IMG/VR virus record: IMGVR_UViG_3300048839_001136
Coordinates: 1-46,353 of that record
From: a virus
Direction: 5' to 3' (one strand)
DNA: 46,353 nucleotides
The position numbers and the translations under genes are program-made. The notes under the pieces are model-generated. The model was not told the origin of the DNA and made no database searches. It saw only the letters and a list, made by a program, of their open reading frames with translations. Below are positions 4,530-46,353 of the stretch, piece after piece; the stretch's first letter is position 1, and every line of letters begins with the position of its first letter.

Positions 4530-4561
4530 ATTCTCCTACTCGCCGGCGGGTGGGTGGGCAC
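4530..4561 (-). promoter_or_regulatory. GTGCCCACC box plus -10-like hexamer before the tail fibre
   Basis: On the minus strand GTGCCCACC (plus 4553-4561) is followed after exactly 17 bases by GAGAAT (plus 4530-4535), and the tail fibre ATG begins six bases further on. The same layout occurs before three other late units. The AGGAG ribosome site lies inside the 32-base span. It is either a promoter/activator site or an RNA-level element; which one is unknown. Confidence 0.45.
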
Positions 4562-7500
4562 TACTGCTTGCTCTCCGGGCTCGGGGTCCCGGTCACGAGC
4601 CCCCGTGCTGCATCAACCGGGTCGGTCGGGATGATGCTTTCCTGGGTGACCCCGGCCAGGTAGCCGAGCGGGCGGGCCGCCGCGTAGAGGGGAAGCCCGA
4701 GCACCATCCCGAGAAGGGTGAGCATGTCCCGTACCGCCCGTCGTGCGTTCACCGCTTCAACGCCCTCGGTGGCCGCCTTGTAGACGTGGGCCGGGACCCC
4801 CACGCTCGCCTCCGCCAGGCTGACCGCCGGCGAGAGGCTCACACGGTCATCCACCGGGGTGGCGTTGAAGCGGTTGACCGCGGCGATCCCAAACTGCCCC
4901 GCCACCGGGATGCCCGCGAGGAAGCCCTTCGCCGTTCCCATCCCGATAACAGCTTCGATCCAGTCGTCGAGGTAGCCGTCGTCCTCGTCGTCTTCAGGGC
5001 CCCCTCGCATCGCGACCGCGATCGCTTCCGCCACCCAGAAAGGAATCAAGAGCCCTGCCAGCCCAACGAACGCGAGCCGATGGGCCCCCTTCACGATCCC
5101 TACCTCTTCGACGATCTGCTGCATGGCAGTCACGTTGGTGTTGAACAGCATCGAGAAGTAGTTGTAGAACTGCGTGAACAGCCGAACCGCTGGCGGGCCG
5201 GCCTCGACACGGCTGATGTCCTCCGGCAGCGAGCTGGTTTGCGTCTGGCGGACCACGCCGTCAGCGAACCGAATCGCATCCGCCTCTTCCATCCCCGCCG
5301 AAAGAGCTTGGTTGTAGGCCCCGGTCCACGCGATAGGCCCGATGACGTTGTCGACCGCGAGCTGCATGAAGTAGGCGTGGCGGATAGCCCAGTCCTGGGC
5401 CCGTTCCAACAGGGTCGGGTTCAGCAGGATCTGTTCGATCTGGCCCGAGATAGCGGCGACCTCGTTCGAGGCCCTTTCCGCCATCATCGGGGACAGCGCA
5501 TGCACGTCTCGCACCATCTTGCGAGGATTCTGAAGGTAGAGGGCAACGGCACGGCCAACATGCCCCGGCCGGACTTGCACCAGCAGGTTTGACAAGCCAG
5601 TGAACTGCTGCAACGTGTTGCTGACGTTTGCGAACATCAGCTGCATCCCGGCCCGGGCCCGAGCTACCGTCGCGATCCGCGACAGCCCCCCGTCACCGAC
5701 GACCGGGGAGTTGACCATCTGCCTCGCGGCCCGGTTCAGCCACGGCCGGAGCATCCCGGAAATCGCACCTGGCTGCAGTGCGTTCAGCTTGTCCTGGACC
5801 CCCGGCCGCCGCAGCACCCGGGCCGTTTGCCGGACCGGGTTTTCCATGTGCGTGAACAGCAGGACCTTGTCGATGTGCTGGGGCAGCACACGAAGGTCAA
5901 GCAACAGAGGACGGTTGTACTCGGCCCTGGAATAGGTGAACCCGCGGGCGGTGGAGGGGAAAGCCGAGGTCAGGCTCGCGTTGTCCTGCTCGATCAGTTC
6001 TCGTTGCTCGGCATCCTGCACCAGCCGGGGGTCGACAAGCGCTGGCACGTACCCGCCACGGTAGGTCCCGAACGGGGTGTCAAACGCGTCCGCGGTCACC
6101 TCCGAGAAGTAGCGCCCGAACGCATCGCGGTGCGCTTTCTGGGCACCGGCTTTCGTCTCTTCCAGAAGATCCCAGACCCCCTGCACGAAGTCGTAGTGCT
6201 CCCGCCGAAGGACTCCGGTGTCGTGCAATCGGCCAAGGAAGGCGTCCCATCGCGTAGTGTCAAGGGTACCGTCTTCGTTCTCCGTGGCCCACCCACGCCC
6301 GAGCAGGAGCTTGCGCTTGTTGGACGCGTTGCCCGTGTGCAGCAGTGCGTGCAACAACTCGGCATGACCACCGCGGCCGCCCTTTCCAAACACGTAGCCG
6401 AGCGTCGGGGCTGCGATCTCGTTCGGAGAGAGCGAGGGCGCGACCCCCTTCACCAGAGCCTGGAACTTCCGGCGGTAGGCCAACCGGTCGGTCCGGTACC
6501 GGTCGGCCGCATCCTTCACCGGCTGGAATACGATCCGCTGGAAGGGGCCCCCGTACTTGCCGTCCACCGAGCCGACCCACTGCTCCACCCTCCGGAGCGC
6601 GGCACCGAAGAACTGAAGCGCTCGGGCCCGCTCTTCCGCCTTTGTGAAAGTGCCCGTGGTACCGGGGAGCGTCGTGGGCGCCCTCTTCTCGTCGAGCCGG
6701 GCCGACAGCATCGCTGCCGCGTCGTCGATGTCCAGCACGTCCCCGGCAACCTCGATCCGCCGGCTGCGCTTCGCGAGATGCCAGAGGCTCGCAACAGCTT
6801 CGTGAAGGGACCGTAGCTCCTCGAACGCCAAAGAGTCGACCGGTTGGGCGTTCTCCACCGCGGCGGCCACCATCGACGAGACCGCGTTGTAGGTCTCGGG
6901 GTCGTGCTGGGCAACCACACTCAGGTAGGCGGACGCTTTCTTCGTGGCCGGCGTCTGGATGCCGTACGCGAACAGGACCGCTCGCGCTGCGTTCACCAGG
7001 TCCGGGTCCCGCCCCTTCTCGACCACCTTTTCATCGGTGCCCCTCACGACCCTCGCGAAGAACGCCCGGATCTGGGCACCTTCAGCCTGGGCTTCCAGCA
7101 GCGCTTTCGAGGTGAGGTTGTGAAGAAGCTGGTCCTGCTTCGCCTTGACCGCCTCTTCCGTCTTCCCCGCCATCGTTGCTTTCAGCCACCGCTGGCTCGC
7201 CCGCTTCTCGGCAGCAGTGTGCTGCCATGCTGCCGCCTTGAGATCGCGCAACGGGGTCCGTGAGACGACCTCAGCAGCAAACCGTTTCCCTGCTTCGACC
7301 AAGATGTTGACGGTCGTCTTCCGGCCGCCCGCGGTCGTCTGGCCGGTGTCTGCCTTCGCCGCCAGGGCCTCCTGCTGACTCCGCAGCTCGGCCGCGAGCG
7401 CGCGAGCACGAGCCTCGTTGTGAACAGCCAGGTTCGCCGCTTCGGCGATCGCGTCGGCATCGTTCAGGTCGCCGTGCTCTTCCAGCATCCTTAGCTCGGC

Positions 7501-10500
7501 GATCGAATCGATCGCGTCGCGCCGGTTTCCGAAAGCCTCGATCGCTTCCATCATCGCCTCGACGGTCGGGAACCCAAAGCTATCGGCGATGACCGCCATC
7601 TCAGCATCGTTGGGGTCCGCCCGCCGCAGCGGTTTCGGGTTCTGTCGGTCCCACTTGATCATCGCGAGCGAGACCTCGGCGTTGACCTCCCCCCGAACCT
7701 TGGCGAGGAACTGGCCCTTCTTCAGGCCGGTCAGCGCGGCCCCTGTCTTCGCCTCTTCCGCGGCCAGGTGCTGCTGCTGGATCTCAAGCCGGGAAGCCTC
7801 CTCCGCGGCGGTCCGGGCGTCCTTCCATGCGTCGAGCCGACCCTGCAGCTCTACATCCACCCTCAGCGCTTCCAGCGCCTTCAGCGCCCGCATCTCGGGG
7901 GTGGCGTCGACCTCTTCCGTGGCTGCCTCGACCGCGGCTTTTCGGGCGGCCTTCGCTTCGCCCTGCAATTTCTTGATCGCCTCGCCCCGGGCCCTCACCG
8001 CCCACTTCAAGCTGGCAAGGCTGCGTTTCGCCAGCTTCTCACCGGCGAGGGCAGTTGCGCTCGGATCCGGCGTCATGCCGGCGATCTGCTCCGCTTCAGC
8101 GATCTGCTCGTCGGTCGCGATCAGCCGGTCCATCACCCGCCGGATGTCATCGTTCAGCGGCTTCCGTTCCCCTTCCGGCAGGCCGGCGAGGAACCGTTGG
8201 ATCGACCCATAGACGGATTTCATCCACGCCGCAAACCGCCGCAGCAGTGGCAGCATTTCAGCGCTCGGGGCCTTTCCCTCCATCACGTATTGCTCGACCC
8301 CCCGGGCCCATTTCTCGTGATGCTCGCGCTTCTGGTCAAGGGTCATCCCCTGCCACGTCTGAAGGTCGGATACCCCGAACCACTGAAGCACCGTACCCAT
8401 GTCGGCCGCGATCCCCGCCGGGGCGTCCGGCTGCGACGCGATATCTGCGAGGACTTCGAGGAAGAAGTGACCGGTCTCGTGGAACCAGGTCGACAGGTTC
8501 GCGTTCGGGTTCAGCACCAGCTCCAGCGTGGCCGGGTTGAAGGTGCCGCGGGCAGACTCGCTGAAGAGGGGAAGACCGCCGGCTGCCGCTTCCTTCATCT
8601 TGTCGGTGATGAGGAAGCCTTGACGCTTGTCGGTTTCGGTGAGCTCAATATCGACAAGCCCTTCCCCGCCGAGTTTTCGGAGCAACTTCTTGGCGGCGGC
8701 AGGAACGATCTCGTCGTAGAAGGCTCGCATCCCTTCCCCGCCGACCTTGAGGTTGAGACCGTCGAGCCGAGTCATCGGCTCGCCCCCGTTCCTTGCGGGT
8801 TGCTGCGAGCCTTCCCCCTGCAGGATCTTCGCGGCCATCTCTTTCCCAACATGATCGGCCAGTTCCGCCTCACGCACGGCTACGGTCTTCAGGATCTTGC
8901 CATCCTTGATGAGCTGAAGGTCGATTTCGTCCCCCGCGCCAACAGTGATGCGGCGGTAGTCGATCGCGTCGATCTGCTTACTCAGGTCATACCGTTCGGC
9001 CGACTGATCCCCTGTAACGAAAGCCACCGCACCGTAGCCTTCATCCACCGCCATCTTGATGATGCGCTTCATGGCAAGGGCAAGCCACTTGTCAGTGGAA
9101 CCCACGAAGGGGGCTCGCCGGACGGCGGCTTGATCGAAGTCTTCGGCAAAACCACGCTCACGGCCGGCTTGCGCCCAGTCGCTCTGGAGCTCCTCAACCA
9201 CCAGCACGCGCCTGCCGTCCACATCGACACGGTCGTTCACCCGGGTGTGGGCCAGGACATCGGGCTCCTCCCAGTGGCCGGAGCGGTACGGCTTCTCGTC
9301 CGCTGGCAGCCGGTAGGCGGCATCGGCTTCGGCGTCGCGCTTGCTCTGCAGATCGAGCATCTGCCCGTGTGCGATGCCGTAGGCGGCACTGTCCTTGCCG
9401 GCCAGGCTTTCCGCCTTCACACGCAGCGCATCAAGCCGCGGCTGGTACTTGTCGAACACCGCTTTGCGCTTGGCGAGGCCCTGCGGCGTCGGTCCGCGTC
9501 TCGGCAGCGCCAGCAGGATCTCGCGGTTGTTGGTGCCTTTCGGGTCCGTGTACTCGGTGTAGCGCGTGCTCCCCTTCACCCAGCTTGGAAAGACCGAGCG
9601 GACCGCATCTACCACGTCCTCTGGGAGGTGGTCCCAATCGACTATCTCGCCATCTTCATCGACAAACTCCACCTGATCGTTGCCTTCATACGAGGCCGCG
9701 TAGCCGTATTCGGCGATCGCGTCATTGATCTGGTCCATCCGGTCGGCCAGATCCGCGTAGACAACCTGCTTGACCCGAACTCCGTTCGCCTTCAGGTAAG
9801 CACCGACCTGCTCGCGGGTGACCTTACCTTCTTGGAAGGTGAGCCACTCGCTGATCCCGGACCATTCGATCTCATCCGGGCTCACACCCTTCTGGGCGAG
9901 GCCCTTCAGCCACTGGGCCCACCCACTGGCGGGGGCCGACTTCATGGGCGCGGCCGCGACCTGACGCGCGAGCTCGCTGTACCAGGGGGTGGACTGCCGG
10001 TACCCCTGTGACGCAGCATCAGCGGCGGTCTGCCCGTTTGGAAGCAGGAAGAAGTCGGGGTTGTAGGGGCCCCACTCTGCTGCCTTTGGGCCGTGCAGGT
10101 TGCCGACCCCGTCGCTCAGTTGAACGATCGCTTCCTGCTGAAGAGCGGCACTGACTGAATCTGCCTCCTCCGGTGTCAGTGGGCGATCGATCTCGACAAC
10201 AGCGGTCAGTTCGGTGTTCGACTGATGCTGGTCGATATTGACCACGCGGACCCCCCGCGACTCAAGTTCCTGCGTTACCTGCTCGGCGGTGATTTGCCCC
10301 TCGCCAGCGACCTCGGCCGTGCTCAGTCCGACGTTGAGGAAGGTCCCTCGGACGAGAGGCGAGAGTGGTCCTTGCCCAAGTACATTCTCCGCCGGGCCAT
10401 CGCCTCCGCGAACATCGCCTCGGCCCCTTGCCGCGAATTTGCGGGCGCCGTCGCTGAAGTTGAGGCTTGCTGAAGCGGTTCCGAGCTTGCTGAAGAGCTG

Positions 10501-13500
10501 TTGCTCGAAGAACCAAGCAAGGGCTTGGACTTGGTAGGGCTTGACCCCGAGTTCTGTTGCCGCTGCATTGAAAAGCTCCTTCACTACCCGCCGCTCAGGC
10601 TCGGTCGGCCCATCAACAATTTTGCCGTCAGGCCCCTGCATCTGCCCAAAATAACGGTGGAAGGTCCGGGTCGCCCACACGTCGACGGTTACCTCGTGGA
10701 TGCCGTTGAGGTTCATCACGAAGGGCCCGACTTTCGGCCCAAACGCACGGAGACCAAGGGCGGTGTCGGTCGCCTTCCCGTCGACCGAAGGACCCATCTT
10801 CCCCCACTTTGCCCTTGCTTCGTTGAGTTCCTTGACCGTGTGCTCTGAGTACAGCCATTCAACAGCAGCGGCTTCGCCCAGATCCTGAACCATCGCGTTC
10901 AGAAACGTGAGGGACTTTTCTTTGGTGGCCGAGACCGGCCCGCCCGCCCACAGGCTTCCGTTGGTGGGATTGCGGGCCGGGATGACCCCAGTGTTCTCGT
11001 AGTGCTGAAAGGCCTGAGCCCCGATGTCCCAGTTGAGGTCTGCTTTGGTACCGGGGGACTGGAGCCCAACGACAACCAGAAGGAGCTGCCGCTTGGCTTC
11101 GTTGTCAGTGAGCGAGGGGATGACCGTGGCGGTCTCGCGGAACGAAAGCTCGATGTCTTCGTCGTACCAGTCGAGCCCACTTTTCTCCTGCTGCATCTGG
11201 TACCGCAACTCAGCGACGAGTTGCTTCAACGCCCTCTTCTTCTCCTTCGGGTCATTGAAGTCGCGCTTCCCTGTAATGCGGTCAAAGAAGGCTGCGACCT
11301 CGTGGACCGACATCCGTTGATTCCCGGTCAGCCCCGGGCCTTCCCGAATGTCGATCGCGGCGGTAGTCCCTGCCTTCGTCGGGAGCTTGACCTTTGGGCC
11401 CGATTCTTTGCCCTGCTGCCCGTAGACCGGCGCCTCTGTCCGGTCGACAAAGCGCTTGACGAGCCCGTCCTTGTAAAGGGTCTCGTCACCCTCGAACACG
11501 CCGGCCTCTTTCAAAGCGGCATGCTCTGTCGGAGCGAGCTTCTCCAAAAGCTCGCCCCAACGCTGGAGCGAAAGCTCCCCGCTCGGCAGATCTGCCCGCG
11601 CTCGCAAAGCGTCGACGGTCAGGTCACGCCCGCGGCTTTCGCGAGCCCCCTGCGGCGGGACCAACTTACCCGTGGTCGCGGCGAGAGGGCCGAGATTCTC
11701 GACCGGAACTGACTGGCCCCCCAGCAGCACCACCTGGCCCGGCTGGCTGCCGGAAAGGCGGTCGAGGTACCCGGCAAAGCCAGCATCGAGCACGGCCGAC
11801 TCGAACCCGAGCTGGTCTTTTCCCTCCTTCAGCCGGAGGGGGTCGGTGTTGCTGTCGTAGATGTTGCTGAGCCTTGCGCGGTGCCCCCGGCCGCCGACCC
11901 CTTGCTCGGGGGTCACCCCGGTTCCCTTGTCGACGTAGAAGTAGGCCCGCCGACGAAGTCGCGGGTCGGCCGCGTTCAAGTAGGTGTCACGCCCGCTTCC
12001 GAGCAGGCCCGTCCCGAACGAAGAGGTGTCGACAGCACTGAGATCGCGAGGGCTGTAGTGGAACGCCTCGACATCGTCGAGCCGACCCGGGCGGGCCGCA
12101 TTGAGCACGGGCCCTGTTGCGCCTCCGCGCTCGCCCGCAATCCGGAGCGGATACTGCTGGTAGAACTGTTCCGCCGTTCTCCCTGTCCTTGCGCCCATCG
12201 TCGCGTAGAACGAAGCGGCCCAGATTGCCATCGCGTCAGACACAGCACGGGAGTGCCGGCCAGTGGCCGCTAGCTGATCAGCCAGCTGCTGCCTGACCGA
12301 TTCGATCTGCTCGCGTGTACGCTCCTGGTTTGCCGCAGCGGAGATAACCTCTTCGATCCGCTGCTGGGCAAGCGCTTGACTCTGATCCCGCTCGGCGTTG
12401 ATCTCCGCCGGGGACTGGTCGAACGGGTTCAGAACCCCATGCTCCTGGACCGCCTGCTCAAGGGGAGTCCCAGGCGCAACCGCCAACACGGCTGAAAGCG
12501 GAATCGCGACCCGATCGCCAGTATCCGCGGCGGGAGTGATCTCGCTCCAAACAGATTCAGGCAACTGCTGAATCACCTCTAGCGGCAGTTGGGCGAGCAC
12601 CTCGCCGGCAACGTAGACCTGAACTTCACTCCCATCAGGACGCGATGCGAGCTCGCGCATCACCTCCCGGAACTCTTCCGGGTTCCGCTCCCGTAGAAGC
12701 GCCCGCTGGGAAGCGGCTAACAGAGCCTTGATAGTGGCCCCATCTTCTTCCTCTTTCCGGCCGCCCCCCGCCAGTTTATTGGCTGCTGCCGCCCCCGCGC
12801 CCACCGCAGAGGTCTGCAGCCCTACCCCGACGACCGTCGAGATGAGTGTATCGAGCAGGTCGGCCGGCTGCTCTCGGAGAAATTCTGCCGTGCTCTTGCC
12901 TGGGTTGAGCGTGGCCCACTCGTTCGCGTTTGTGGTGAGGGTCGTCGCCAGTTCGTGCGGGATCTCCACCGCGTACTGAGCGGCCAGCATCTTCGCAAAC
13001 TCACGGACGGCATGCCCTCCCGCCGGGGCGGCGAAATACTTCAGAAGCGCGTCCAGCGGCCCCTTCTCGAATGCCGCTTCCAGGCCACCTTGCTGGACCG
13101 CGTACAGCAGCGCGCGGCCAGGGTCGACCCCCGCATCGAGCGCTTCGGGGCCAGCGGCGCCCCCCGCCAAACCGCCCATGATCGGAAGTATCAGGTCGGG
13201 CCGCTTCAGGAGCGCGCCCGCCAGAATCAGAGGAACGTTCGTCGCAGCGGAGATGAGACCGCTTTGCACAGGCCGGACCCACTCGTAGCCCTCCGGGGGT
13301 TCTCCCAGCGTATTCTCGACCGAGGCCTGTTCTTGCCTGCGCTTGCTCCGGACTGCCTCGATGATCGGAGCGAACGGGTTGCCCGGCAGCAATCGCAACC
13401 AGGGGGCCTCCCGGGTCTGGCCCGAGAGTAGGTCCCCGATCGGTTCGACCGTCGCCCTCAAAAGCAGCTCCATCCCCCCGTAGCTGCTGACACCGACAAG

Positions 13501-13959
13501 AGCGGGGGTGGCCTTGAGCGGGCGGACGACAAACAAGTCGAGCAGCTGCTCGATGTCGGAGAGGGACTTCAGGTCGTCGTGGGTCTGGGCCACTGTATCG
13601 GGGCGGTCACCGAGGTACTTCTGCAGCCTCGGGGCCAGCAGCAGCGCGTCTTCTGCCTGATCTGCCGCCGCCCGCGCCTTCGCCTCCGGCAGGTTGTTGT
13701 AGAGCACGTCCGGAAGGACCGAATACCGCTTCCCGAGCTTGGCCGCCTCCGCGGCCTGGTCCGGGTTCCGGCGGACCGCGGTGTCGAGCACCGGCCGGAC
13801 TTGGGCGAGCCCCTGGCTCCGCCGAAGCTCGTCCGCCGCCTCAGCGTATGGATCCCGAGCGGGCTTCGCCAGGGGGGCGCCGATCGGAGCCGGAACGCCC
13901 GCCGGCCTGGTCGGTCGGGCGAACAGCTCGTCGGCCGCTAACTCGTAGACGTTGCTCAT
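4561..13959 (-). CDS. Giant polyvalent internal virion (ejection) protein
   Basis: At 3132 residues this gene fills one fifth of the window. It occupies the position of T7 gp16, after gp15-like and before the fibre, so it is probably packed in the head and ejected into the host. Visible modules: an ART-like segment at about 625-720 (FHYSP, then YFYVDKGTG) and a conserved domain at about 880-1110 (SVHEVAAFFDRITG; GIHEVTVDVWATR). An LPD-type module lies at about 1580-1660 (VVEELQSDW, AVAFVTGDQSAERYDLSKQ). A zincin-like HETGHFFLE motif is at about 1826, a long coiled coil at about 1970-2090, and a hydrophobic segment near 2955-2975 (GLAGLLIPFWVAEAIAVAM). No N-terminal transglycosylase is seen, unlike T7 gp16. 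The ATG overlaps the previous stop (ATGA). Enzyme activities are inferred from motifs only. Confidence 0.88.
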   Translation of the reverse strand: MSNVYELAADELFARPTRPAGVPAPIGAPLAKPARDPYAEAADELRRSQGLAQVRPVLDTAVRRNPDQAAEAAKLGKRYSVLPDVLYNNLPEAKARAAADQAEDALLLAPRLQKYLGDRPDTVAQTHDDLKSLSDIEQLLDLFVVRPLKATPALVGVSSYGGMELLLRATVEPIGDLLSGQTREAPWLRLLPGNPFAPIIEAVRSKRRQEQASVENTLGEPPEGYEWVRPVQSGLISAATNVPLILAGALLKRPDLILPIMGGLAGGAAGPEALDAGVDPGRALLYAVQQGGLEAAFEKGPLDALLKYFAAPAGGHAVREFAKMLAAQYAVEIPHELATTLTTNANEWATLNPGKSTAEFLREQPADLLDTLISTVVGVGLQTSAVGAGAAAANKLAGGGRKEEEDGATIKALLAASQRALLRERNPEEFREVMRELASRPDGSEVQVYVAGEVLAQLPLEVIQQLPESVWSEITPAADTGDRVAIPLSAVLAVAPGTPLEQAVQEHGVLNPFDQSPAEINAERDQSQALAQQRIEEVISAAANQERTREQIESVRQQLADQLAATGRHSRAVSDAMAIWAASFYATMGARTGRTAEQFYQQYPLRIAGERGGATGPVLNAARPGRLDDVEAFHYSPRDLSAVDTSSFGTGLLGSGRDTYLNAADPRLRRRAYFYVDKGTGVTPEQGVGGRGHRARLSNIYDSNTDPLRLKEGKDQLGFESAVLDAGFAGYLDRLSGSQPGQVVLLGGQSVPVENLGPLAATTGKLVPPQGARESRGRDLTVDALRARADLPSGELSLQRWGELLEKLAPTEHAALKEAGVFEGDETLYKDGLVKRFVDRTEAPVYGQQGKESGPKVKLPTKAGTTAAIDIREGPGLTGNQRMSVHEVAAFFDRITGKRDFNDPKEKKRALKQLVAELRYQMQQEKSGLDWYDEDIELSFRETATVIPSLTDNEAKRQLLLVVVGLQSPGTKADLNWDIGAQAFQHYENTGVIPARNPTNGSLWAGGPVSATKEKSLTFLNAMVQDLGEAAAVEWLYSEHTVKELNEARAKWGKMGPSVDGKATDTALGLRAFGPKVGPFVMNLNGIHEVTVDVWATRTFHRYFGQMQGPDGKIVDGPTEPERRVVKELFNAAATELGVKPYQVQALAWFFEQQLFSKLGTASASLNFSDGARKFAARGRGDVRGGDGPAENVLGQGPLSPLVRGTFLNVGLSTAEVAGEGQITAEQVTQELESRGVRVVNIDQHQSNTELTAVVEIDRPLTPEEADSVSAALQQEAIVQLSDGVGNLHGPKAAEWGPYNPDFFLLPNGQTAADAASQGYRQSTPWYSELARQVAAAPMKSAPASGWAQWLKGLAQKGVSPDEIEWSGISEWLTFQEGKVTREQVGAYLKANGVRVKQVVYADLADRMDQINDAIAEYGYAASYEGNDQVEFVDEDGEIVDWDHLPEDVVDAVRSVFPSWVKGSTRYTEYTDPKGTNNREILLALPRRGPTPQGLAKRKAVFDKYQPRLDALRVKAESLAGKDSAAYGIAHGQMLDLQSKRDAEADAAYRLPADEKPYRSGHWEEPDVLAHTRVNDRVDVDGRRVLVVEELQSDWAQAGRERGFAEDFDQAAVRRAPFVGSTDKWLALAMKRIIKMAVDEGYGAVAFVTGDQSAERYDLSKQIDAIDYRRITVGAGDEIDLQLIKDGKILKTVAVREAELADHVGKEMAAKILQGEGSQQPARNGGEPMTRLDGLNLKVGGEGMRAFYDEIVPAAAKKLLRKLGGEGLVDIELTETDKRQGFLITDKMKEAAAGGLPLFSESARGTFNPATLELVLNPNANLSTWFHETGHFFLEVLADIASQPDAPAGIAADMGTVLQWFGVSDLQTWQGMTLDQKREHHEKWARGVEQYVMEGKAPSAEMLPLLRRFAAWMKSVYGSIQRFLAGLPEGERKPLNDDIRRVMDRLIATDEQIAEAEQIAGMTPDPSATALAGEKLAKRSLASLKWAVRARGEAIKKLQGEAKAARKAAVEAATEEVDATPEMRALKALEALRVDVELQGRLDAWKDARTAAEEASRLEIQQQHLAAEEAKTGAALTGLKKGQFLAKVRGEVNAEVSLAMIKWDRQNPKPLRRADPNDAEMAVIADSFGFPTVEAMMEAIEAFGNRRDAIDSIAELRMLEEHGDLNDADAIAEAANLAVHNEARARALAAELRSQQEALAAKADTGQTTAGGRKTTVNILVEAGKRFAAEVVSRTPLRDLKAAAWQHTAAEKRASQRWLKATMAGKTEEAVKAKQDQLLHNLTSKALLEAQAEGAQIRAFFARVVRGTDEKVVEKGRDPDLVNAARAVLFAYGIQTPATKKASAYLSVVAQHDPETYNAVSSMVAAAVENAQPVDSLAFEELRSLHEAVASLWHLAKRSRRIEVAGDVLDIDDAAAMLSARLDEKRAPTTLPGTTGTFTKAEERARALQFFGAALRRVEQWVGSVDGKYGGPFQRIVFQPVKDAADRYRTDRLAYRRKFQALVKGVAPSLSPNEIAAPTLGYVFGKGGRGGHAELLHALLHTGNASNKRKLLLGRGWATENEDGTLDTTRWDAFLGRLHDTGVLRREHYDFVQGVWDLLEETKAGAQKAHRDAFGRYFSEVTADAFDTPFGTYRGGYVPALVDPRLVQDAEQRELIEQDNASLTSAFPSTARGFTYSRAEYNRPLLLDLRVLPQHIDKVLLFTHMENPVRQTARVLRRPGVQDKLNALQPGAISGMLRPWLNRAARQMVNSPVVGDGGLSRIATVARARAGMQLMFANVSNTLQQFTGLSNLLVQVRPGHVGRAVALYLQNPRKMVRDVHALSPMMAERASNEVAAISGQIEQILLNPTLLERAQDWAIRHAYFMQLAVDNVIGPIAWTGAYNQALSAGMEEADAIRFADGVVRQTQTSSLPEDISRVEAGPPAVRLFTQFYNYFSMLFNTNVTAMQQIVEEVGIVKGAHRLAFVGLAGLLIPFWVAEAIAVAMRGGPEDDEDDGYLDDWIEAVIGMGTAKGFLAGIPVAGQFGIAAVNRFNATPVDDRVSLSPAVSLAEASVGVPAHVYKAATEGVEAVNARRAVRDMLTLLGMVLGLPLYAAARPLGYLAGVTQESIIPTDPVDAARGLVTGTPSPESKQ

Positions 13960-26432: not shown

Positions 26433-28091
26433 TCAGAACCCCTTCAGGACATCGTAGCCGGCCGGGTGCGTCCGTGTCCGTGCCTGCTCCATCCCGTGGA
26501 TCGGGTCGTACCCGATCACGTTGGCGCGTGAGTTGGCGGCATTGAGCCACTTCCGCTTTGGCACTTCCATTGCCGCCAGCAAAACGGCGCTGGCACGGTC
26601 GGGAGACCGCCCAATACGATCCACGATTTCCTCCCGGCTCTCGACCTTGATCTTCCGACCCTCGATCTTCCAGCGGGGGGCGGTAAGTTCCGCCAACAGG
26701 TCCGTATCTGGGGGCAGCTCGACCCCTGTGTCGGCGTCCGGGTCGAGCAGTTCACGCATCCGCCACCACAGCTCGCTCCTGACGTTCGAGAACCCCAACC
26801 CCCCGGCCTTGATGGTCCCGTTAGTGGCTTCGGCGACGTTGACCCCGAGCACCTGCACGTTCGCCTGCATCAAGAAGTCATACGGGCTCGCGCCGACCCC
26901 GATCACGTCAATGTTCACAGGGGCGTCATCCCTCCGGTGAGCAAGCACGTGGGCCATCACTTTCGGGCCCGTGTTGGTGTCGATCCCGTGCAGGGGCTTG
27001 AGGTGATCGAACCACCAGTCGTGGTCTCGTGTCCGGTGCCGGTTGGAGACCTGGGTCGAGTCCTTCCCCCCGCGGGCTACATCAACCCCTTGCTGGAGCA
27101 TTTCACCCTTCGGCGATCGGTCCTTCCACCGTGCTTGGGCTTGCTCGACCCAGCGGGTCGGTATCACCTGCCAGGGGTCGTCCTCGACCCCGGCCATGAA
27201 GTCCCCCTTCAGCATTTGGCTGCGGAGGGGCTCAGGAAGTGCCTGTAGCGTCGAGATATACCCACTCGCCACGTAGTAGGGATTGTCGGTCACCTTCGAC
27301 GGAATGAAGGTCCTGGATTTCGGCACGATGATGTCTTCGGGCTTGTGTTCAAGGGGGTCGAACTCGTAGGTCGGTTTGTCGTTGACCAGCACGAACGGGT
27401 CGCCACGATCAAGCCACATGTCCGTCGTGCCGCCCTTTCCGTCCGGCAGCATCGCGGCATACCGGATCACCCCCGCCGGAGTTGGGAACAGTGGATGCTT
27501 TCTGTCGATCCAGGGGCCAAAAAACGAGATCACCCACCGACCCTCGTTCGTGGTCGGGGGGTTGAACGTCATCAGCACCCTCGGGCGGACAGATGGGTCC
27601 GGGCTCCGGTTCCACCCCATCACGAACCGGACCTGATGTTCCCTTTGCTCGGTCACCTCATCGAATACCTTCAGGTCGTGGGGGCGGCCCTGCCACCGGC
27701 GCTCGTCGCCGGGGTTGTCCAACCCGGCCAGCTCCAGTAACTGGTCAGGCCCTAGCTTCCACGCGCCTTTTTGACTGTTGTAGCCGGCCGTGTTGCCGAG
27801 TACTTCCGTCATCCGTTGGACAATCCCTTCGGTCTGGGCTTTCTCCCGCCTGACGACTAGGCTTCGGCGGTGCCTCGTGAGCACAAGGCCAACCGCAAGG
27901 TCGGTCTTCCCCCCGCCGGCCGCTCCCCCGAACCCGATGATGTCGGCCTCGGCCTCGTAGGCCTGTTGCTGGGGGCCCGGCAGCGGGCGCCACCGAACCT
28001 CGGCCAGGTCTTTCGCGACAAGGCCATCAAGCTCTTCCAGTTCCTCTTCGGTGAGGTAGGCCGAGAGCGATTTGATCTCGTCGGCGTTCAC
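26433..28091 (-). CDS. Terminase large subunit
   Basis: This 552-residue packaging motor has an N-terminal ATPase with Walker A at 55-63 (GGAAGGGKT) and Walker B at about 144-145 (KVFDEV). A coupling region with NPPTTNEGRWVISFFGPW follows, then a C-terminal RNase H-like nuclease with QGVDVARGGKDST and INIDVIGVGAS as the metal-ligand strands. It cuts and translocates DNA into proheads with the small subunit. The start is GTG, overlapping the stop of the repeat protein (GTGA). The distance from the small terminase gene (five genes, 3 kb) is unusual; the two are most often adjacent. Confidence 0.95.
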   Translation of the reverse strand: MNADEIKSLSAYLTEEELEELDGLVAKDLAEVRWRPLPGPQQQAYEAEADIIGFGGAAGGGKTDLAVGLVLTRHRRSLVVRREKAQTEGIVQRMTEVLGNTAGYNSQKGAWKLGPDQLLELAGLDNPGDERRWQGRPHDLKVFDEVTEQREHQVRFVMGWNRSPDPSVRPRVLMTFNPPTTNEGRWVISFFGPWIDRKHPLFPTPAGVIRYAAMLPDGKGGTTDMWLDRGDPFVLVNDKPTYEFDPLEHKPEDIIVPKSRTFIPSKVTDNPYYVASGYISTLQALPEPLRSQMLKGDFMAGVEDDPWQVIPTRWVEQAQARWKDRSPKGEMLQQGVDVARGGKDSTQVSNRHRTRDHDWWFDHLKPLHGIDTNTGPKVMAHVLAHRRDDAPVNIDVIGVGASPYDFLMQANVQVLGVNVAEATNGTIKAGGLGFSNVRSELWWRMRELLDPDADTGVELPPDTDLLAELTAPRWKIEGRKIKVESREEIVDRIGRSPDRASAVLLAAMEVPKRKWLNAANSRANVIGYDPIHGMEQARTRTHPAGYDVLKGF

Positions 28092-29533
28092 GCGGTCCGC
28101 ACCCAGAAGTAGACCGCCTTGTATGGCTGCAAGACCGAGATCTCTGTCGCATTCGCATCTTGCAGCGGGAACGTGGCGGCGACCCCGGCGGCCGCCAGGA
28201 TCGAGGCGACCGCTGCGGCCGACCCCCCGACGACGGAGGAGGCAGCGACACCCGCGGCTGGGACGATAGCGGACCCGACCGAGCCCCCGACCAGGATCAG
28301 GCCAGAGGCCGCCCCGGCGGCCGCCAGGATCGCCGCTGCTGCGGTCGCCGACCCGGTGAGAGTAGACGCAGCGGCCAGGCCCGCCGCAGCTGTGATGCTC
28401 GCGCCGGAGGTCGCCGACCCGGTGAGGGTAGACGCCGCGGCCAGGCCCGCCGCGGCCGTGATACTCGATTCGGAGGTCGCCGACCCGGTGAGGGTAGACG
28501 CCGTGGCGGCGCCTGCGGCCGGCGCTATCGCGGCCTCTGACCCGCCAGCGGCCGACCCGGTGAGAGTAGACGCAGCGGCCAGGCCCGCCGCGGCTGTGAC
28601 GCTCGATTCAGCGGTAGCCGACCCGGTGAGAGTAGACGCCGCGGCCAGGCCCGCCGCGGCTGTGACGCTCGCGCCGGAGGTCGCCGACCCGGTGAGAGTA
28701 GACGCAGCGGCCTGACCCGGCGCGGCCGTGATACTCGATTCAGCGGTAGCCGACCCGGTGAGGGTAGACGCAGCGGCCAGGCCCGCCGCGGCCGTGATAC
28801 TCGATCCGGAGGCCGCTGCTGCCTGCGGAACGTAGATCCGACGATCCTCGAACAGCCTCAGCGGTGCGGCAGACAGCTCTGCCGCGGCAGCGTGGCCGAT
28901 GTCGGTGCCCATCCACCCGACGAAGATCCCGAACGGAATCCCGATTGCGCCGGAACCGCTGGTGTAGTACCGCGCGCCGGTAGATGCAGCCCAGGACGTG
29001 TTGAGGGTCTCGTCCAGAATCTGCGCGCCGTTCGTGAAGACCTTTTGTCCACCATCCCACAGCCGGAACGTGAGCCCGAACTCCTGCCCAACCTCGACTG
29101 GAACCGCAACCACTCGGCTGTTCATTGTGTTGGCGATGAACCGCATCGTGAAGTCACTTTCACCATTAACCAGCAACGCCGGAATATAGGACGCCGTCAG
29201 CCACCGGAGCTGGGAATAGTGACCCGCGCCACACAGCGCAAGCCGCCGCGCGAGGATCAGCCCGGATGAGCGTTTGGTGTCTGTGTCGGTCGAGCTGTAA
29301 TTTGCCAGATCGGTTGACTGCGCCACCAATCGGTATTGCAGTAGCCCCGGCCCGAAGTTCTGCCGCGGGGCGGTCCAATAGTCGCTCTTGATCTGCGTGC
29401 CGGCGACAAGATCGAAACAGCCGCCGTCGATCGTCGTGACGAGGCAGTAAGTCGGTCGCGGAAACCGGGTCGAGAGTTTGAGCGCCCACGGGTTGTCCGG
29501 GATGCTCACCCACGGCCGACGCAAGACAATCAT
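28088..29533 (-). CDS. Virion protein with 22-residue Ala/Thr repeats
   Basis: This is a 481-residue protein. The N-terminal half (about 1-240) is beta-rich and contains AVPVEVGQEFGLTFRLWDGGQKVFTNG, which has a LamG/lectin-like look. From about 243 to 465 there are ten copies or variants of a 22-residue unit (SSITAAAGLAAASTLTGSATAE and changes of it). The end is APYKAVYFWVRTA-like (LQPYKAVYFWVRTA). This is probably a surface-exposed decoration or tail-associated protein; the repeats would form an extended stalk. The ATG is seven bases after the previous stop. I do not recognise a family for the N-terminal part. Confidence 0.68.
   Translation of the reverse strand: MIVLRRPWVSIPDNPWALKLSTRFPRPTYCLVTTIDGGCFDLVAGTQIKSDYWTAPRQNFGPGLLQYRLVAQSTDLANYSSTDTDTKRSSGLILARRLALCGAGHYSQLRWLTASYIPALLVNGESDFTMRFIANTMNSRVVAVPVEVGQEFGLTFRLWDGGQKVFTNGAQILDETLNTSWAASTGARYYTSGSGAIGIPFGIFVGWMGTDIGHAAAAELSAAPLRLFEDRRIYVPQAAAASGSSITAAAGLAAASTLTGSATAESSITAAPGQAAASTLTGSATSGASVTAAAGLAAASTLTGSATAESSVTAAAGLAAASTLTGSAAGGSEAAIAPAAGAATASTLTGSATSESSITAAAGLAAASTLTGSATSGASITAAAGLAAASTLTGSATAAAAILAAAGAASGLILVGGSVGSAIVPAAGVAASSVVGGSAAAVASILAAAGVAATFPLQDANATEISVLQPYKAVYFWVRTA
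28345..28800. repeat. Tandem 66-bp repeats inside the virion gene
   Basis: On the plus strand the core GCCGACCCGGTGAG(A/G)GTAGA recurs seven times at near 66-base steps, with one 75-base step near 28475-28550. Neighbouring copies alternate between a few flanking variants (GATTCAGCGGTA, GCGCCGGAGGTC), which looks like past unequal exchange. Confidence 0.85.
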
Positions 29534-35082: not shown

Positions 35083-35649
35083 ATGGCGACCAAGTACGAG
35101 CTGACCAGCGAGACCCTTGAACTCAACGGTCACACTCTTCACCGGATCCGGGCGGTCCGGTCCTTCGGCGAGATTGTCGAAGGAACCCTCGGGGGCTGGA
35201 TCGAGAACGAGGGCAACCTCAGCCACGAGGGTACTGCCTGGGTCACCGACGACGCCCGGGTCTCCGGCCGCGCCTGGGTCACCGACGACGCCTGGGTCTT
35301 CGGCAACGCCTTGGTCTCCGACGACGCCTTGGTCTCCGGCCGCGCCCGGGTCTCCGGCAACGCCTTGGTCTCCGGCCGCGCCCGGGTCTCCGACGACGCC
35401 TTGGTCTCCGGCCGCGCCTGGGTCACCGACGACGCCTGGGTCTTCGGCAACGCCTTGGTCTCCGGCAACGCCTTGGTCTCCGGCCGCGCCCGGGTCTCCG
35501 GCCGCGCCTGGGTCACCGACGACGCCCGGGTCTCCGGCCGCGCCTGGGTCACCGACGACGCCTGGGTCTTCGGCAACGCCCGGGTCTTCGGCAACGCCCG
35601 GGTCTCCGGAGACGACTGGATCTCCGGCGACGCCCAAGTCAACAGCTAG
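35083..35649 (+). CDS. Hexapeptide-repeat (left-handed beta-helix) YdcK-like protein
   Basis: The protein has 188 residues. Residues 1-46 (ATKYELTSETLELNGHTLHRIRAVRSFGEIVEGTLGGWIENEGNLSHEG) match the opening of YdcK-type proteins (a GGW(V/I) motif before the repeats). Residues about 48-185 are hexapeptide rungs of the form (A/R)-x-V-x-(G/D)-x (RVSGRAWVTDDAWVFGNALV and so on), predicted to form a left-handed beta-helix. The role in phages is not known; such folds occur in acyltransferases but no transferase domain is present. The DNA is a minisatellite of 18-base units. The gene starts nine bases after the previous stop with GGAG upstream. Confidence 0.8.
   Translation: MATKYELTSETLELNGHTLHRIRAVRSFGEIVEGTLGGWIENEGNLSHEGTAWVTDDARVSGRAWVTDDAWVFGNALVSDDALVSGRARVSGNALVSGRARVSDDALVSGRAWVTDDAWVFGNALVSGNALVSGRARVSGRAWVTDDARVSGRAWVTDDAWVFGNARVFGNARVSGDDWISGDAQVNS
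35232..35640. repeat. 18-bp tandem minisatellite in the hexapeptide gene
   Basis: About 22 imperfect 18-base units such as GCCTGGGTCACCGACGAC, GCCTGGGTCTTCGGCAAC, GCCTTGGTCTCCGGC(C/A)(G/A)C. The variants are few and shuffled, a pattern expected from replication slippage or unequal exchange that keeps the reading frame. Confidence 0.85.
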
Positions 35650-45273: not shown

Positions 45274-45621
45274 ATGGTGAAACTGACAGGCAGCGAGTGG
45301 AATCGCTTTTACAACGACGCGGGGGCTTGGCCGGATGGCGCATGGCACGAAGACGAGGAAATCACCGTGGACGGCAAAACGGCCGGTGATGACCTCGACC
45401 TTTCGGCCGTGCCGGATGGGGCAATGCTGACCGTGGAGGGTGGTGTGGTGTACCTGACCGAAGACGCGGACTACGGCCCGTCTCTGGAAGCGCACTTCAA
45501 GCGTTGGCGCAAGCGGCAGACGACAACCGTGCTTGTCGTGGAAGTGCCGCACGAAGCCGTCAAAGTCGTGCGCGCTGCGATTGCTGCTGCTGGCGGCAAG
45601 GTAATTCGAGACAAGGAATGA
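45274..45621 (+). CDS. Small phage/plasmid-type protein, unknown
   Basis: This 115-residue protein opens VKLTGSEWNRFYNDAGAWPDGAWHEDEEITVDG and continues DDLDLSAVPDGAMLTVEGGVVYL. The C-terminal half (TTTVLVVEVPHEAVKVVRAAIAAAGGKVI) is a separate alpha/beta unit. The first domain is common in phage and mobile DNA small proteins. AGGAG before ATG is clear. It overlaps the next ATG (ATGA). The function is unknown. Confidence 0.72.
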   Translation: MVKLTGSEWNRFYNDAGAWPDGAWHEDEEITVDGKTAGDDLDLSAVPDGAMLTVEGGVVYLTEDADYGPSLEAHFKRWRKRQTTTVLVVEVPHEAVKVVRAAIAAAGGKVIRDKE

Positions 45622-45926
45622 CCGCTGCAGAAACTATGCGAGTTGCTCTGCTGGCGCTGGAAGACGCCGCGAGCGTGCTAGGCACTTCCTGGGCTGACTC
45701 TGTGGCGCACAAGCCGATTGCTGCGCTACGGGCGGCGCTTGATGCTACTGACGACGACGTTGATGTGCTTGCCTCGTACAGCCGAACCGATGGCCGGCGC
45801 GAGTGGGTCAATGTCGGGACATGGCTGCGGCCTGGCGAGGTGGTGGCGCGCATGGCAGACCCGCGGCCTAACGTTCGAGCTAAGCGGGGCCAAACGGCGC
45901 CGCACAACCAAGGAGAAACGCAATGA
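45618..45926 (+). CDS. Small protein with shared N- and C-terminal modules
   Basis: The protein has 102 residues. The N-terminus (TAAETMRVALLALEDAASVLGTSWADSVAHKPIAALRAALDA) is the small helix-loop-helix module also seen at 44479. The end (ASYSRTDGRREWVNVGTWLRPGEVVARMADPRP) repeats the C-terminal module of 44642. The last 20 residues (RPNVRAKRGQTAPHNQGETQ) are read through an attC-like site and are probably not conserved. The ATG overlaps the previous stop and the stop overlaps the next ATG. Confidence 0.62.
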   Translation: MTAAETMRVALLALEDAASVLGTSWADSVAHKPIAALRAALDATDDDVDVLASYSRTDGRREWVNVGTWLRPGEVVARMADPRPNVRAKRGQTAPHNQGETQ

Positions 45927-45968
45927 ACTCACCCGCCGTTTGGACTCCGCTTGAGCGAGGGGTTAGGC
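45866..45968 (+). other. attC-like integron recombination site
   Basis: GCCTAAC (45866-45872) and GTTAGGC (45962-45968) are perfect inverted boxes with the attC consensus (RYYYAAC / GTTRRRY). Inside them, TTCGAGCTAAGCGG faces CCGCTTGAGCGAG with a few mismatched bases, then CCAAACGGC faces GCCGTTTGG (9 bp). This is the folded two-box stem of integron attC sites with unpaired spacers, and the box sequences resemble those of pseudomonad/xanthomonad arrays. A cassette boundary would lie between G and TT of GTTAGGC. Confidence 0.75.
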
Positions 45969-46228
45969 GCCTGCTCGCATGGTGGCGAGCCGCTGGCCCC
46001 GACATGGCGACGCCGAGCGGAGGCTACGAAGCCGAGCCCGAAGAAGACCGCATCGAGGCCGCGTACTGGCGATTCGACGCGCGGCACAAGGGCTACGGCA
46101 AGTGGAAGGCCGCGCCGATGAGTGAGCGCGACGCCTTCAAGGCCGAGATGCGCAACGCGCTGGCCGCCGAGAAAACGCGGGCACAGATGCGGCTGGTGGC
46201 GCATGGCTGGCGTCGCCCTGGCGCCTAA
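45923..46228 (+). CDS. Cassette-type small protein, unknown
   Basis: The protein has 101 residues from ATG 45923 (coupled by ATGA). The first 13 codons lie within the attC-like site, so an internal ATG at 46004 (ATPSGGYEAEPEEDRIEAAYWRFDARHKGYGKWKAAPMSERDAFKAEMRNAL) is the better start if the DNA is a separate cassette. The stop TAA falls in the first box of the next attC-like site, as usual for cassette genes. The helical, charged body has no family I recognise. Confidence 0.6.
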   Translation: MNSPAVWTPLERGVRRLLAWWRAAGPDMATPSGGYEAEPEEDRIEAAYWRFDARHKGYGKWKAAPMSERDAFKAEMRNALAAEKTRAQMRLVAHGWRRPGA

Positions 46229-46278
46229 CACCTGAAATCACGCGCGCCGAAGGCGTCGCGTGCATTGAATAGTTATGC
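46223..46278 (+). other. attC-like integron recombination site
   Basis: GCCTAAC (46223-46229) and GTTATGC (46272-46278; one mismatch) are the outer boxes. Inside, ATCACGCGCGCC faces GGCGTCGCGTGCAT, paired except for two extra bases, closed by a GAA loop. Extra unpaired bases on one arm mark attC polarity. At 56 bases it is at the short end of known sites. The gene upstream ends inside its first box. Confidence 0.7.
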
Positions 46279-46303
46279 GGCTCTGGCCGCGACGGAGAGG
46301 AAG

Positions 46304-46353
46304 ATGAGTAACGAGAAAACACCTGTTGCATACCTGCACCAAGTTGTCTGCGG
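46304..46353 (+). CDS. Start of a small phage-type protein (cut by window edge)
   Basis: Sixteen residues are visible (SNEKTPVAYLHQVVC after the Met) after GGAGAGGAAG. The opening PVAYxHQVV is common in small phage proteins of proteobacteria. It begins 26 bases after the second attC-like site, so it would be the first gene of the next cassette. Confidence 0.5.
   Translation, partial: MSNEKTPVAYLHQVVC

Follow-up and report, generated by a model that had tools for sequence, protein, structure and literature searches.

Inverted gene cassettes with start codons inside attC loops point to a phage-borne integron array

The viral record IMGVR_UViG_3300048839_001136 of IMG/VR was analyzed here as a single window of 46,353 bases, which is the entire record, so that the right end of the window is also the end of the contig. 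Close to this end lie two attC sites, the recombination sites of integron gene cassettes, and we think it likely that they mark the left end of a phage-borne integron array in which the cassettes are inverted, genes start within attC loops, the far end resembles an attI, and an integron integrase would exchange the cassettes. Sequence comparison identifies the attC sites, the inversion, the start codon in the loop, the end of the array, its recurrence in many phages and, in two phages, an integrase gene (intI) beside such arrays; transcription, translation and integrase-driven exchange of the cassettes we infer from these. The two sites in the window are as follows.

45866-45968, minus strand (the canonical top strand): attC1, GCCTAAC...GTTAGGC, 7 of 7 box positions complementary, R' GTTAGGC, loop of about 33 nt, folds as a hairpin; 46.6 bits, E 2.2e-10 with cmsearch.
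46223-46278, minus strand: attC2, GCCTAAC...GTTATGC, with R'' GCATAAC and R' GTTAGGC on the minus strand; 43.3 bits, E 2e-9 with cmsearch.

A sequence-only reading of the window had named these outer boxes and inner paired boxes, and its positions proved exact, with extra unpaired bases in the inner boxes of both sites. Because the test of identity had to avoid circularity, the covariance model (R1) was trained on bacterial and class 1 sites only, namely on 25 attCs from a collection that drew on bacterial integron arrays and on two plasmids with class 1 integrons. A third phage site (attC3, below) supplied the seed pattern for the bacterial part of the collection, which biases that part towards this type of attC; the class 1 sites are independent of the pattern. 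The model matched both window sites, on the minus strand only, and the next-best match in the window reached 14.7 bits. A scanner for attC architecture picked out these two minus-strand sites and no others in the 46 kb, and 20 shuffled versions of the window gave none. The DNA folds of the sites gave z values of -2.6 to -3.2, so the covariance and folding checks proposed in that reading both bore it out. With R''/R' boxes, L''/L' pairing, extrahelical bases and a hairpin all present, both are attC sites by sequence and predicted structure, and the E values and shuffles argue against chance. Rfam gave no match in the window at gathering thresholds; we know of no attC family in Rfam. A loose scan for boxes plus pairs was discarded in favor of the trained model and the architecture scanner, as it produced many false matches.

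Known attC sites carry an extra base in the 5' inner box of their top strand. All of the phage sites show it there only when read on the minus strand, and the trained model agrees; reading the sites in the direction of the genes was rejected, as this places the extra base in the wrong arm and gives no plus-strand match to the model. The genes around the sites run the other way. The crossover position within attC sites is established knowledge (before the last C of GCCTAAC, GCCTAA/C), and the cassettes can be delimited as below.

45618..45926, plus strand: P0001, a phage early-type gene of 102 amino acids, at the left edge of the array and reading into attC1.
45872..46228, minus strand: cassette 1, attC1 followed by its inverted gene, 357 nt between the inferred crossover points of both boxes.
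45910..45925, plus strand: Shine-Dalgarno sequence and start codon in the attC1 hairpin loop (AAGGAG, 7 nt, ATG).
45923..46228, plus strand: cassette gene 1, 101 amino acids, starting in the attC1 loop and stopping in the first box of attC2.
46229..46353, minus strand: first part of cassette 2 (attC2 and gene 2), which contig L001 completes up to attC3.
46304..46353, plus strand: start of cassette gene 2 (MSNEKTPVAYLHQVVC...), which runs on in L001 into the attC3 loop, with its stop TAG at L001 6727-6729.

The sequence-only reading was right that a gene stops in the first box of the next site: the TAA of open reading frame (ORF) 45923-46228 lies at 46226-46228, within the GCCTAAC of attC2. It had taken this for the usual layout of integron gene cassettes, which has to be corrected, since genes and attCs occupy opposite strands and the first box that contains the stop belongs to the attC of the next cassette. 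A canonical cassette, with its gene on the attC strand and the attC at the 3' end, is not what we find; as read from the sequence, the window cassettes are inverted, each attC standing 5' of its own gene and the gene on the opposite strand. Among clear cases, genes opposite to and along the attC strand number 65:16 in phages (n=81) and 19:418 in bacteria (Fisher p ~1e-49); in the bacterial control, genes follow the attC strand in 120/139 by one count, and in 418 of the 437 clear cases. As the longest-ORF test behind these counts is too noisy by itself at high GC content, evidence from protein families and codon positions was added to it. Of the ORFs in 170 phage cassettes, analyzed in two sets, those on the opposite strand matched 48 and 50 PHROG and 8 and 11 Pfam families, and same-strand ORFs of these cassettes matched no PHROG in either set and no Pfam family in the first set, the one scanned. 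Cassette gene 1 differs from its homologue in L002 by 9, 8 and 44 mismatches at codon positions 1, 2 and 3 of the plus frame. One bacterial-type record was left out of the phage orientation count (L211/L214, IMGVR_UViG_2834908352_000001); it is classed as viral, carries a canonical integron with an IntI 73% identical to that of Lysobacter, and is probably bacterial or prophage-flanking DNA. In phage TJE1 the sole scanner site (L295 1016-1075) lies on the strand of the genes, the canonical way round, and is missed by the trained model.

The start codon of cassette gene 1 lies in the attC1 loop, and its ATG overlaps the TGA stop of P0001 (45924-45926) as ATGA. The gene reads in frame across the 3' arm and R box of attC1, from which it takes its first 13 residues, and the remainder is a phage gene that is present without an attC in L002 and L006. 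A homologous attC-plus-gene cassette in L003 also starts in its attC and in frame, with a different attC-encoded N-terminus (MNSPAVWTPLERG- against MNTTNEARRPAVAGLVERT-, each joined to VRRLLAWW...). Shine-Dalgarno sequence and ATG occur in the loop on the gene strand in 42 of 117 distinct long phage attCs (2 on the other strand), against 12/220 bacterial ones (Fisher p ~1e-12), and the frame so opened runs for 40 codons or more in 35/117 long phage attCs (35 of those 42) against 1/220 in bacteria (Fisher p ~5e-17). Single cases may be due to chance, as the pattern is a simple consensus; it is the contrast between phages and bacteria that serves as evidence. According to a review (PMC8876359), attC hairpins in mRNA hinder ribosomes, and a short ORF within the attC relieves the hindrance. 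A start inside the loop would suit this problem.

The array can be followed beyond the window in a second contig (L008/L001), 100% identical over 16,170 nt and reaching 928 bp past the right end; we found no overlapping contig past the right end of L001. It adds the following features.

L001 6699-6756, opposite to the genes: attC3, 60.2 bits, E 2.7e-14.
L001 6773-7156, plus strand: gene 3, P-loop kinase-like, after gene 2.
L001 7153 on: attI-like end of the array, a lone GCCTAAC box without a partner, followed by a conserved element.

Since attC3 follows in L001, the array does not continue as ordinary phage genes without sites. The proposed look to the right thus gave a third attC, a third gene and an attI-like end, and no intI in L001. 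With two neighboring attCs in the window and three in L001, and no match to PF00589 or TIGR02249, the sequence-only description as similar to a cluster of attC sites lacking an integron integrase (CALIN) is apt for what is visible, the right side being only partly so. It had also reported no integron integrase in the window, and no phage-integrase (tyrosine recombinase) domain was found there.

The element that ends the array (CTAACGCAATCTAGGGCGCA...TGCGCCC) occurs in 7 copies in 6 viral contigs, L001 and five others, and its left flank diverges at the R box, which is what one would expect of insertion at an attI. Copies without a detected attC in L291 (13367-13422), L313 and L314 could be empty sites or belong to another kind of cassette. 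An intI beside an attI, as in a complete integron, is missing from the window and L001 and present in the phage contigs G009 and G045, both with terminase (TerL) and portal genes, where an IntI above the TIGR02249 cut-off adjoins inverted arrays. There, intI, attI and attC keep their usual geometry and only the cassette genes are turned. IntI was also found in four further viral records, possibly phages. An attI core, TCGAATTnAAGTTrrGC, is common to 3/6 IntI records, with a close variant in G009. The core of the element that ends the window phage's array was found in none of 399 genomes from the order of Paucibacter (G056; Burkholderiales). The phage IntI proteins are 44-66% identical to bacterial IntI and 54% to IntI1, and as most forks of the IntI tree are weak, we claim no separate phage clade. 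Two side observations concern these phages: the G018 contig (L203 18420-18620) holds a 67-amino-acid integron integrase fragment near an inverted array, a decayed phage intI, and the integrase-bearing G045 contig carries a BstA-type abortive infection gene (L304 16323-17390).

Arrays of this kind recur widely. Two attC half-site patterns gave 27 and at least 80 stretches in viral contigs, in which the trained model had at least about 350 matches. In the relatives L009, L010 and L041, which have a homologous DNA polymerase, the arrays stand among early genes and the attCs are always opposite to the polymerase; L009 and L010 have phage genes on both sides of the array. Cassette genes recur across different phage contigs in 28 pairs, and the cargo includes DNA methylases, an Acb2/Tad1 hairpin domain, Lar restriction alleviation, PAPS reductase and RMF. 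Among isolated phages, this type of attC was found only in P1 (MH445380) and a Salmonella record (AB571791), an integron-bearing P1 being already known, and attC3 was found in none.

In the window itself, the array is located within the phage early operon, in line with the rightward early genes, and for this reason the phage, rather than an integron Pc promoter, probably transcribes it. We propose that in each cassette a recombinable attC precedes a gene that is encoded on its bottom strand and reads away from it. As long attC loops hold the Shine-Dalgarno sequence and start codon of their own gene, each such cassette would bring its own translation start, and a ribosome initiating in the loop would open the hairpin. 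An integron integrase may insert and reshuffle cassettes at the attI-like end, and could come from the host, from a co-infecting phage or from a part of the window phage not seen here; the plus strand would fold for recombination and expression would come from the early operon.

Several observations weigh against this proposal. No integron integrase was found in the window, L001, L003, L009, L010 or L041, and L001 extends about 128 nt past the point where the attI-like element begins. Only 4 of the 7 attI-like copies adjoin attCs, the other 3 having no detected attC nearby. The phage cassette proteins had no match at E 1e-6 in the bacterial integron loci at hand, and exchange with hosts is accordingly no more than a possibility. 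Finally, 16 of the 81 clear phage cassettes are canonical in the longest-ORF test, noisy as that test is.

It could be that the array is a relic, its cassettes once captured by a host integrase and now fixed as phage genes. The lack of an integrase in the window and its extension speaks for this, as does the intI fragment in the array-bearing contig G018. Neighboring boxes nevertheless still match (GTTATGC/GCATAAC), attC3 remains near consensus at 60 bits, and conservation of the attI-like element extends over 6 contigs, and we consider a relic unlikely. Somewhat less likely again is that recombination has been lost and the hairpins are kept for control of translation, through the start in the loop and the overlap of stop and start. 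The loop start and ATGA overlap in the window would fit, and so would the reported hindrance of ribosomes by attC hairpins (PMC8876359). Such a role would not explain why boxes and extrahelical positions are retained in dozens of unrelated arrays, why short attCs without a start codon (125) roughly equal the long ones (117) in number, or why the same cassette genes appear in different arrays.

That the array is an ordinary CALIN from a host integron, with genes upstream of the attC on the same strand as in published phage CALINs, seems very improbable. A same-strand ORF of 100 amino acids (45929-46231, minus) does overlap cassette 1, Xanthomonadales-type attCs are common in bacterial chromosomes, and the single TJE1 site lies on the genes' own strand; against this stand the family matches, many for opposite ORFs and none for same-strand ones, the third-position bias in favor of the plus-strand gene, the P-loop kinase-like gene 3 on the plus strand, and model scores on the minus strand only. 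An assembly chimera or host DNA at a prophage end is the least credible, for although the window terminates inside the array and one IMG/VR record in the set (L211/L214) resembles a bacterial integron, the identical second contig continues further, and independent relatives carry arrays among their early genes. This also speaks against the sequence-only suggestion that the phage might border an integron array as host DNA, and upholds its other suggestion, that the phage carries the sites, among its early genes and past the window.

Going beyond the window phage, we lean slightly towards the view that phages keep up a separate pool of cassettes, apart from bacterial integrons, with backward counter-defence genes, hairpin starts and phage promoters, and with phage or host integrases capturing the cassettes at a phage attI. 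The inverted cassettes suggest such a pool, run by phages, whose exchangeable genes would include some directed against bacterial defences. An inverted cassette inside a host integron would be antisense to Pc and therefore silent. Integrons are usually presented as belonging to bacteria and having a single fixed layout. In the arrays described here, this layout appears reversed repeatedly in many phages, with the start codon within the recombination site and a counter-defence cargo (DNA methylases, Acb2/Tad1-type, Lar). If the cassettes move, phages could swap counter-defence genes site-specifically, without homologous recombination, which bears on the fast gain of such genes; the array is suited to existing attC x attI assays.

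The phage is related to BPP-1 and epsilon15, as a podovirus of that kind, with head, tail and terminase families present and a head-tail adaptor of at most 50% identity to BPP-1. The sequence-only reading had placed the sites in an early-gene block of lower GC, and the block does have 0.584-0.650 (500-bp steps) against 0.637-0.682 in sampled 2-kb windows elsewhere, a slight difference and a weak point. Elsewhere in the window we noted a 66-bp tandem unit in about 7 copies (28343-28816), within a 481-amino-acid ORF (28088-29533, minus) without a PHROG match; an 18-bp unit (GCCTGGGTCTCCGGCCAC) in about 22 copies (35236-35635), with a longer period of 72 and overlapping several ORFs; and a 3132-amino-acid ORF (4561-13959, minus) between an endolysin-like gene and a tail fibre gene.

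Four known systems come close to these arrays. The chromosomal integrons of Xanthomonadales (Lysobacter, Luteimonas, Pseudoxanthomonas) share the type of attC and its box and extrahelical geometry, and the phage attC3 pattern occurs in more than 119 genome stretches, mostly from this group; their genes, however, follow the attC strand, and a usable loop start is almost absent. Class 1 integrons (IntI1, attI1) share the attC structure, whereas the phage arrays lack the sulI/qac frame, have inverted genes and carry counter-defence rather than resistance cargo. In the "reverse" integron of Treponema denticola (PMC4909258), it is the integrase gene that is described as turned. Its integrase reads the same way as its cassette genes, which is also true of the two phage integrons, but in the latter the geometry of intI, attI and attC is the usual one and the cassette genes are the turned part. 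Closest are the CALINs and integrons described in phage genomes by Qi et al. 2023 (PMC9892861), with attC sites and cassette genes in phages as here, where the cassettes were described as having the typical layout and IntI1 recombined 5/6 of the phage attCs tested with attI1. In the arrays reported here the gene is opposite to the attC, often starts inside it, and stands beside an attI-like element and, in a few cases, a phage-encoded IntI. We found no published description of inverted phage cassettes with internal starts, in a literature search that covered few subscription journals and no preprints. What was known before is that phages carry CALINs and that IntI1 recombines their sites; the inverted cassettes with internal starts appear to be new.
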